Positions 9,709 through 40,598 of a stretch of DNA of 64,000 bases are shown here, piece by piece. Under the pieces are notes generated by a model. The model ran no database searches. It had not been told where the DNA came from and saw only the letters and a program-made list of their open reading frames with translations. Origin of the DNA: Pseudomonas sp. PSB18. Its GTDB lineage: Bacteria > Pseudomonadota > Gammaproteobacteria > Pseudomonadales > Pseudomonadaceae. The translations under genes and the position numbers were made by a program. The stretch covers positions 62,001 to 126,000 of the forward strand of contig NZ_NOIN01000015.1 of NCBI RefSeq assembly GCF_014596565.1, read 5' to 3'. Each line of letters opens with the position of its first letter. The first letter of the stretch is position 1.

Positions 9709-9832
9709 GTCTTGTCAAACCCTGCGACCGGTTCCGGACGCTTGGGCCGCATACGCCATGGTCTGCTGACCAAGTATGTTGACGTATGCCGGGCGAGCAG
9801 GGTGCTCGCGGGAGACTACTCCCCTAGGACGC
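9698..9832 (-). promoter_or_regulatory. yybP-ykoY manganese riboswitch aptamer
   Basis: On the minus strand the leader carries the two conserved blocks of this class: GGGGAGTAG (9816-9824) and GTCAACATACT (9773-9783), in that order and spacing, ending with ACAAGACC. The ends form a closing stem, GCGT..TAGG with CCTA..ACGC. The downstream gene is a GDT1 transporter, a known regulon member for this class. Known biology: Mn2+ binds between the two conserved loops and switches the gene on. Confidence 0.88.
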
Positions 9833-9887
9833 TGCGGATTCTGCCTAGGCAAATCCGATTGGGCAAGTGCTGTGTCTTAAAAAGCTT

Positions 9888-34073: not shown

Positions 34074-34487
34074 ATGAACTCCAGTCGACCTTATCTGGTC
34101 CGCGCGCTCTACGAGTGGATTGTGGACAATGATTGCACCCCGCACATGCTGGTCAATGCCGAGTATCCATCGGTACAGGTGCCGCAGGGGTTTGCCAATG
34201 ATGGGCAGATTGTCCTGAACGTTTCGCCGGCCGCCGTGCGCCATCTGCACATGGACAACGATGCCGTGAGCTTCGAAGGCCGCTTCGGCGGTGTGCCGCA
34301 CACGCTGTATGTGCCTATCGCTTCGATCCTGGGGATTTATGCCCGGGAGAATGGCCAGGGCATGGTGTTTGAGTTGGAAGCGCCGTTGGATGGCGAGGAA
34401 GAGTACGAGGTGGATGATGACCTGCCGCCACCGGATGACGAGCCGCCGCGGCCTAGTGGTCGGCCTAGTCTTAAGGTGGTGAAGTAA
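34074..34487 (+). CDS. sspB: ClpXP specificity-enhancing factor SspB, 137 aa
   Basis: Adaptor that delivers ssrA-tagged proteins to ClpXP. The substrate-binding domain (about 1-105) opens SSRPYLVRALYEWIVDNDCT and includes HMLVNAEYPSVQVPQGF and ILGIYARENGQGMVF. An acidic, flexible linker follows (EEEYEVDDDLPPPDDEPPRP), and the C-terminal ClpX-binding tail RPSLKVVK is intact. It is co-transcribed with sspA. No terminator is seen; a giant inverted repeat starts six bases after the stop. Confidence 0.95.
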   Translation: MNSSRPYLVRALYEWIVDNDCTPHMLVNAEYPSVQVPQGFANDGQIVLNVSPAAVRHLHMDNDAVSFEGRFGGVPHTLYVPIASILGIYARENGQGMVFELEAPLDGEEEYEVDDDLPPPDDEPPRPSGRPSLKVVK

Positions 34488-34492
34488 GGATT

Positions 34493-35358
34493 GGTGTACA
34501 TATCCGTTTCTTTGGTAATGGCTGCTTATGGTTCCGCCCTTACGGCGGGTCACTTTTGGCAAACGCCCGGAATGCCGGCCCAGCCAAAAGTAACCAAAAA
34601 GTCTTTGCCCCACCACTGGGCACCTCGCCAAGGCTCGGTGTTCCCTCACTCCGGCATTGCTCCGTGGGCCCGCCGCGAAGGGCCATCCATGGCCCAGCGC
34701 GGCTATCCCGGCATCCATGCCGGGTTGCCCACTACGCAACGCCTGCGTTCGGCCCTTGTGGTTTACGGGGCGTCCAAGATCAAAAGCCAAAGCCAAAGCC
34801 AAAGCCAAAGCGAGGCGGCCTAATGGCCGGCCTGACTCTTCCGGCTGCACCTGAATCCACCTGTGGGAGCAAAGCTTGCTCGCGAGGCGACCGGCTGTCC
34901 CCGATCAATTGTGGGAGCGAGCCTGCTCGCGATGGCGTCAGGTCAGCAGCATTGATGTAGGTTGACACATCGCAATCGCGAGCAGGCTCGCTCCCACAGT
35001 GGGATTGAGGTGCAGCCGTAAAGACAGGCCGGCCGTCACACCTCCTCGCTTTTGCTTTTGCTTTTGCTTTTGATCTTGGGCGCCCCATTAACCACAAGGG
35101 CCGAACGCAGGCATTGCGTAGTGGGTATCCCGGCATGGATGCCGGGATAGCCGCGCTGGGCCATGGATGGCCCTTCGCGGCGGGCTCACGGAGCAATGCC
35201 GGAGTGAGGGAACACCGAGCCTTGGCGAGGTGCCCAGTGGTGGGGCGAGGCGCTTTTGGTTACTTTTGGCTGGCCGGCACCCCGGGCCTTTTCAAAAGTA
35301 ACCCGCCGTAAGGGCGGAACCTTAAGTGGCCGTTACCGAAGAAACGGATATACACACC
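34493..35358. repeat. 866-bp imperfect inverted repeat with nested REPs
   Basis: Left arm 34493 to about 34880 and right arm about 34985-35358 are inverted copies, judged by eye to be near 90 percent identical, with long identical blocks such as CCACTGGGCACCTCGCCAAG. Each arm contains shorter palindromes (GGGCCATCCATGGCCC; CCCGGCATCCATGCCGGG) and ends inward in a hexamer tract, AAAGCC on the left and AAAAGC on the right, then a type A REP. The roughly 100-bp centre holds another REP. No real gene lies inside. It fills the gap between sspB and dolP, which converge here. Small frames within it are artefacts. Confidence 0.9.
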
Positions 35359-35444
35359 AACCACCTCCAAAAAAAACGGCGCTTCCCCGTCTTGAAGAAG
35401 CACCGTTTTCTAGCCAAGCGCAGCATCAAGAACCGCAACTACCC

Positions 35445-36637
<1,193 letters not shown>

Positions 36638-40040: not shown

Positions 40041-40393
40041 GAGAGTCGATCGGACAGTCGCTGCCCTCTATGAGAATTGGAGGGGGGAGGAAAGTCCGGG
40101 CTCCATAGGGCGAAGTGCCAGGTAATGCCTGGGAGGCGTGAGCCTACGGAAAGTGCCACAGAAAATAACCGCCTAAGCGTTTCGGCGCCGGTAAGGGTGA
40201 AAAGGTGCGGTAAGAGCGCACCGCACGGCTGGCAACAGTTCGTGGCTAGGTAAACCCCACTTGGAGCAAGACCAAATAGGGTCCCAAGGCGTGGCCCGCG
40301 CTGGGACCGGGTAGGTTGCTAAAGATGTCCAGTGATGGCCATCGTAGACGAATGACTGTTCAAGACAGAACCCGGCTTACAGATCGACTCTCC
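40041..40393 (+). ncRNA. rnpB: RNase P RNA (M1 RNA), bacterial class A
   Basis: Catalytic RNA that trims tRNA 5' ends. The closing stem is GAGAGTCGAT at the 5' end with ATCGACTCTC at the 3' end. The universally conserved GAGGAAAGTCCGGGCTCC lies near 40085-40103. GTGCCACAGAAAATAACCGCC, CGGTAAGGGTGAAAAGGTGCGGTA and GGTAAACCCCACTTGGAGCA match the core of proteobacterial rnpB, and CAGAACCCGGCTTACAG closes it. It is about 353 nt long and lies between rsmI and mraZ, as in P. aeruginosa. Confidence 0.97.
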
Positions 40394-40598
40394 ACCTTTT
40401 CCCTTCCTGCCGAAATCACTGGCAGACGCATTTCCTAAGACCAAAAAAATCTTACTCTTAACAAATCACTTTAACTTGTGAGCGCAGCTTCCTGTGGTTG
40501 CTCGGGTTGAGGTGAAAAATCCTACGTCAGATTCTTGTTGGCCCTCCTAAAACGCTCCTAAATCTCCGATCTATAAGGCTTTTCCTTCAATCCGCGCC
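40394..40598. other. 205-bp spacer between rnpB and the mra promoter
   Basis: AT-rich relative to its surroundings. It contains a weak T-rich stretch after rnpB (CCTTTTCCCTTCC) that may end that transcript. No gene or repeat is seen. Confidence 0.5.

Follow-up and report, generated by a model that had tools for sequence, protein, structure and literature searches.

The TwoAYGGAY motif (Rfam RF01731, of the Csr-Rsm binding clan) has been reported from the human gut, gammaproteobacteria and Clostridiales (PMC2864571), and binding of CsrA has already been proposed for it. For RsmE, a hexaloop ANGGAX placed directly on its stem is a high-affinity target that tolerates variation at N and X, both of them looped out, while stem-loops 3 and 4 of RsmZ, which are without the N, are bound less tightly (PMC4005645). 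RsmE of strain SBW25 effectively bound both ATGGA and AGGGA presented as single-stranded DNA hairpins (PMC9928087). Intergenic repeats, for their part, are abundant in fluorescent Pseudomonas; the P. fluorescens families R0 to R200 have been described, and the explanations given for such repeats include transposition and termination (PMC2718517).

We analyzed a 64,000-nucleotide stretch of DNA from Pseudomonas sp. PSB18 (the window), in which a large palindrome lies between sspB and dolP. We consider it probable that the palindrome represents, in composite form, one copy of a repeat that is interspersed and non-coding, and that each arm encodes an RNA whose structured core is about 120 nt long. 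An earlier note, made from the letters alone, had described the palindrome and missed the paired RsmA/CsrA-type hairpins in the structured RNA of its arms, which give the element a testable function.

The palindrome between sspB and dolP

The whole element (34494-35357, no strand; about 860 bp) is bounded by the inverted conserved ends of its family and separates two convergent genes, sspB upstream (34074-34487, plus strand; SspB, PF04386) and a gene for a BON-domain protein at the dolP position (35445-36023, minus strand). Arm 1, on the sspB side (34494-34837), has its RNA sense on the minus strand, and arm 2, on the dolP side (35022-35357), has its RNA sense on the plus strand. The earlier note had described two facing arms, near 90% identical, between convergent genes, and we found that the arms, each about 300 nt, are 90.8% identical over 315 nt (BLAST), with 60 nt from 34607 as the longest block identical between them. 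As inverted repeats they are 93% complementary over 226 nt (34580-34805 with 35048-35273) and 88% complementary over 68 nt (34491-34558 with 35293-35360). The start that had been placed six bases past the sspB stop also stands (about 6 bases), as does the view that the element holds no real gene: two ORFs tested across it had no Pfam match (E 0.001), and we rejected protein coding on that basis. The hexamer tract that the earlier note saw in each arm is present (AAAGCC repeats at 34783-34810 in arm 1; CTTTTG repeats at 35048-35073 in arm 2), but the REP that it placed at each inner end is borne out only in part: the center holds one inverted, REPIN-like REP pair (34910-34998; halves 34910-34937 and 34971-34998), with a further REP-like half near 34864-34885. 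The central REP pair matches dozens of other places in the same genome, in which REP pairs also occur without arms. Read-through had been expected to make a very long double-stranded RNA, and a full window transcript is indeed predicted to pair 337 of 399 arm-1 bases into arm 2.

Two possibilities that would have undone this description, an assembly error and arms that are unique in their genome and missing from relatives, fared poorly: both arms are present at the same site in the separate assemblies G194, G010, G231 and G060, which makes an artifactual palindrome unlikely, and the repeat is found in many copies and in many genomes. Elsewhere in the window, there are matches to a class A bacterial RNase P RNA (40042-40395, plus strand, 335.5 bits) and a Mn2+ riboswitch (yybP-ykoY; 9717-9837, minus strand, 56.4 bits).

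The structured RNA core and its GGA hairpins

Read outward from the center, both arms exceed the TwoAYGGAY gathering score of 43. The structured core of arm 1 (34637-34755, minus strand) contains a match to RF01731 at 34666-34730 (51.1 bits), and that of arm 2 (35098-35216, plus strand) contains one at 35123-35187 (51.6 bits). The window arms cover positions 45-113 of the 168 in the model; many other Pseudomonas copies cover all of it (1-168).

We aligned 122 arms spanning the core (120 distinct), whose cores comprise 109 distinct sequences. Thinning these to 68 (<97% identity) and removing 5 rows of a subfamily that lacks the hairpins left 63 rows (alignment A1). In A1, 90.1% of cells are paired and 32 of 42 pairs are doubly changed, the structure tested having been drawn from these same sequences. 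None of 500 shuffles reached any of five measures of covariation, and versions of the structure slid along the alignment paired at most 41.5% of cells. RNAalifold, run unaided on the core, gave 34 pairs, 26 of them with double changes. The mispairs differ between strands, in that G.U occupies 86 cells and A.C only 11 (in 21 and 7 of the 42 pair columns). Since an A.C on the sense strand would be a G.U on the other, the molecule under selection is the RNA read outward from the center. Judged from these patterns of change, selection is acting on the sense-strand RNA of the arm, branched with covarying helices.

Each core contains two short hairpins, all four of them with the loop AUGGAU closed by a C-G pair: hairpins A and B of arm 1 (34707-34724 and 34680-34695, minus strand) and hairpins A and B of arm 2 (35129-35146 and 35158-35173, plus strand, with loops at 35135-35140 and 35163-35168). 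Among the 120 arms, loop A is CATGGATG in 47, CA-GGACG in 33, CAGGGATG in 31 and something else in 9, and loop B is CATGGATG in 89, CAAGGATG in 12, CAGGGATG in 11, CAGGGACG in 2 and something else in 6. Both GGA triplets are retained in 113 of 114 Pseudomonas arms (with the 6 hairpin-less arms of the 120 left out), and their spacing in the window is 28 nt, as it is in 58 of the 63 rows of A1; the other 5 rows have 29 nt. The tips of both hairpins are A(N)GGA with C-G closure, matching the published RsmE target, and the common variants belong to the two published RsmE kinds, the ANGGAX hexaloop and the N-less loop. The genome itself has three genes of the CsrA family.

One subfamily (L132, L133, L134, L136 and L138; 6 of the 120 arms, in 5 genomes) has the usual outer arm and a different core without both GGA hairpins. 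From this, the Rsm module looks exchangeable.

Distribution, inheritance and mobility of the repeat

With an RNA model of the core built from the 63 arms (R1), we counted 15 arms in the genome that contains the window, 15 each in G010 and G194, 14 in G145, 30 in G082, 38 in G017, 62 in G120 and at least 148 in G134; the eight were chosen for having hits, and up to 150 candidates were scored in each. The earlier note's mention of large intergenic repeats in pseudomonads is borne out by this multicopy family. A DNA search with the arm found it in 28 of 57 genomes, the window's own included, all 28 of the same genus (the unit of the search tool, presumably the GTDB genus). RF01731 matched 95 of 149 sampled genomes of the genus at E 0.001 (83 over the cut-off) and none of 14 control genomes. 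The other 54 of the 149 gave no match at E 0.001, and thus the element is not essential to the genus. All 80 loci among the matches listed from a scan of named GTDB genomes with a 33-letter pattern (at least 118 stretches) are from Pseudomonas, the pattern itself having come from Pseudomonas copies.

The RNA model reached further. Among 369 genomes sampled from the class it matched at least 41, one of them G000, in 38 of 272 genera and often several times per genome, in a scan that lost weak matches to its filters and scored the best 9 candidates per genome. Outside the genus, 40 of 368 other genomes examined had matches, and 60 loci taken from these 40 gave 75 aligned matches, or 70 after 5 opposite-strand echoes were dropped. 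In the 75 matches (74 distinct), 92.0% of cells are paired and all 42 pairs are doubly changed, in an alignment fitted to the structure. The 70 sense copies again have more G.U than A.C (127 to 28), and 65 of them have A(N)GGA in both loops, a conservation that was partly selected for because R1 scores the loops, which does not apply to the variety of the stems or the free N position. The two loops, together with the C-G pairs that close them, make up the 12 least variable of 118 columns (70 copies, 40 genomes), with a clear rise in variability at the next column. In an Rfam scan of 15 outside-genus loci, 5 reached the RF01731 cut-off (6 matches). The plasmid and phage collections gave one partial match each: a partial arm amid type III secretion genes on P. 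antarctica plasmid NZ_CP015601.1, and a partial arm adjoining an annotated transposase in phage record MT121968.1.

To follow the site itself, we sought sspB in 398 genomes of the genus and compared 30 loci from among the closest. Among the 20 loci with sspB identity of at least 89.1% (the window's own included), 15 have at least one substantial arm after sspB, and at identity of 87.7% or less, none of 10 has an arm; sites without the element, for which the earlier note had proposed a test downstream of sspB, are thus present in relatives. Two of the other five (L193 in G361 and L196 in G301) have only a short palindrome of the two outer ends, and L190 (G146) has an end remnant; these look like products of collapse (probably so for L193 and L196) or decay of the long palindrome. 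L194 has no arm in the stretch examined after sspB, and L197, also counted among the five, is cut by a contig end. In G010, a stretch carrying an IS110-type transposase gene (L112, 1425-2453) breaks into the orthologous element next to its central REP.

The earlier note had taken the long identical blocks as a sign of gene conversion or recent spread. We compared eight G010 loci, which together contain 12 of that genome's 15 arms: seven match a site of the window's genome on both flanks and one on a single flank. Thus, the copies compared are old and vertically inherited, and recent spread is not supported for them. Wholesale recent gene conversion of the window arms is likewise unsupported, since arms at the sspB-dolP site resemble their G010 and G194 counterparts more closely (93.5 to 94.9%) than they resemble each other (90.6 to 92.5%). 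What remains likely, from their placement in a tree, is some older exchange or homogenization among arms. The dolP-side arms of G000, G194 and G010 group together (local support 0.965), with the sspB-side arm of G318 among them; the sspB-side arms of G000, G145, G133 and G010 group together (0.876) in a group that also holds arms of another site; the G194 sspB-side arm is placed close to arms from another site; and G060, G231 and G409 form a group (0.986) that mixes arms of the two sides.

Paired arms almost always point away from each other. In 196 distinct Pseudomonas clusters, we counted 115 single arms, 76 divergent pairs, 2 same-direction pairs and 3 complex arrangements, so that 76 of 78 two-arm clusters are divergent, in a set with 41 clusters near a locus edge and some loci chosen for being doubles. 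The whole G134 genome has 34 single arms and 57 pairs, every pair divergent. Of the 10 two-arm loci in other genera, 9 are also divergent, and the remaining one is convergent (echoes left out). The consensus of 40 G134 doubles keeps the GGA loops in both arms, as a consensus. These doubles (L411-L450) are about 700-900 bp long, have a different conserved end, TTGATACCGGACTGGCAAG, and are often in recurring flanks.

We considered that the family might be a selfish miniature transposon, in which the RNA structure and GGA hairpins would work for the mobility of the element itself (for instance, through a transposase or an Rsm protein acting on a single-stranded DNA or RNA intermediate) with no gain to the host. 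This fits the inverted ends, the absence of a gene with a known domain, the recurring ends in G134, the at least 148 arms of that genome, and the binding of single-stranded DNA hairpins by RsmQ and RsmE in vitro (PMC9928087). It also fits G017, where all 11 doubles combine a 117-nt core with one of 120 or 121 nt (among the 29 of 38 places listed), as if the double had spread there as one unit. The element thus has the terminal inverted repeats and lack of known-domain ORFs of a MITE, but the target-site duplication, which the earlier note had thought worth looking for, did not turn up: none of 5 nt or more was found in the 36 of 40 G134 elements with placeable ends, and none by eye in the other doubles inspected. 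Since the compared G010 copies are also at orthologous sites and the loops obey the Rsm rules, we regard a purely selfish element as unlikely.

Gene context bears on another explanation, in which the palindrome would keep the sspB and dolP transcripts apart, as a bidirectional terminator or a substrate of RNase III. With RNA sense taken as plus, 32 of 70 single arms are in convergent gaps, 24 in tandem-sense, 12 in tandem-antisense and 2 in divergent ones, while background adjacent gene pairs are ++ in 136, -- in 104, divergent in 72 and convergent in 66; these counts are indications, as genes were called by our own codon score and loci share ancestry. Thus, single arms prefer convergent and shun divergent gaps (32 to 2, against 66 to 72), as would suit a boundary and as the tail-to-tail bias reported for P. 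fluorescens repeats would lead one to expect (PMC2718517); their tandem sense bias is weak (24 to 12, P = 0.065). The predicted long duplex and the 4 terminator-like sites in 34300-35600, compared to 1.4 expected, point the same way. Doubles, however, have no clear bias in gene orientation (n = 51; convergent 15, ++ 10, -- 15, divergent 11), a terminator-like hairpin is seen by eye at the sspB site in relatives without the element and remains on the dolP side of the window element, and a boundary role leaves the strand asymmetry and the fixation of the loops unexplained, which together make it distinctly improbable. A function at the DNA level, in which a DNA protein (gyrase, IHF or RAYT) binds the cruciforms or palindromes and recombination keeps the arms alike, would account for the strong palindromes and the central REP pair, but is very improbable given the excess of G.U over A.C (86:11, and 127:28 outside the genus), the fixation of loops on one strand and the existence of REP pairs without arms.

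Proposed Rsm binding and comparison with known systems

We therefore return to the reading that we think probable, that of an old, once mobile intergenic repeat whose transcripts would bind RsmA/RsmE; transcription, binding and titration are all inferred. The two GGA hairpins of the core would be expected to be bound by RsmA/RsmE/RsmI-type proteins, and one Rsm dimer might bind both hairpins of an arm using both of its faces. Single arms would probably be transcribed by read-through from the upstream gene, because the window copy yielded no sigma-70-type promoter (no sigma-70-like site in 34300-35600), and in a divergent double, whichever neighbor reads through would yield one arm in the sense direction. 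We considered an arm promoter of its own with a GacA box, of the RsmX/Y/Z sRNA type, and set it aside, as boxes with up to 3 mismatches to the motif are no more frequent than chance (6 in the window compared to 7.8 expected; one overlaps the sspB stop). The arm copies might serve as 3'-UTR anchors, or as a distributed sponge shifting the set point of the Gac/Rsm system, with protection of 3' ends as an alternative to titration; the gene context suits a 3'-UTR role for single arms, short of proof. The arms probably spread as non-autonomous mobile elements, with the copies compared in this lineage now inherited vertically.

The strongest point against the proposal is the predicted arm-to-arm duplex, which should hide the loops at equilibrium. 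In that case, exposure of the sites would be limited to co-transcriptional folding, to processed transcripts, and to single or unlike arms.

If each arm does bind RsmA/RsmE, there would be tens to hundreds of extra sites per genome, beyond RsmX/Y/Z, for a regulator that governs secondary metabolism, motility and biofilm; CLIP-seq and RNA-seq data of kinds that already exist could test the role of the repeat directly, and an Rfam motif of unknown role would gain a concrete setting. A bolder version, which we hold to be unlikely, is that a mobile family seeded Pseudomonas and other gammaproteobacteria with orientation-independent docking cassettes for Rsm/Csr proteins, such that copy number (14 to at least 148 arms in eight genomes, with two sites each) sets free RsmA and tunes the Gac/Rsm switch of each species, and the spread of a repeat rewires a global regulon.

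Compared to known systems, the arm shares A(N)GGA loops on short stems with the Rsm/Csr sponge sRNAs (RsmX, RsmY, RsmZ and CsrB/C), and differs from them in that no promoter or GacA box was found for it, in having two sites rather than many, in being dispersed and multicopy, and in its branched core. With MITEs and with REPIN/BIME elements, it shares its non-coding nature, inverted ends and central REP pair, but it differs in its selected RNA module, in its length of about 860 bp and in that no target-site duplication turned up. Two of the P. fluorescens families, R200 (320 bp, 47 copies) and R26 (352 bp, 20 copies), resemble the arm in size, intergenic position and tens of copies, a likeness drawn from sizes and counts (PMC2718517); the tail-to-tail bias in that report, a further resemblance, is given for the repeats as a whole. 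In the titles and abstract openings listed from the open-licence PMC literature, we found no link of TwoAYGGAY or Rsm binding to Pseudomonas repeats. With TwoAYGGAY itself, the arms share the core of two AYGGAY hairpins, at scores above gathering in both arms; the portions of the published description that we draw on present that motif as a candidate RNA of unknown role, and not as a high-copy repeat or a divergent double. Against the literature searched, what appears to be new for this known motif is its character as a repeat and its divergent double form, to which we add the test of strand.
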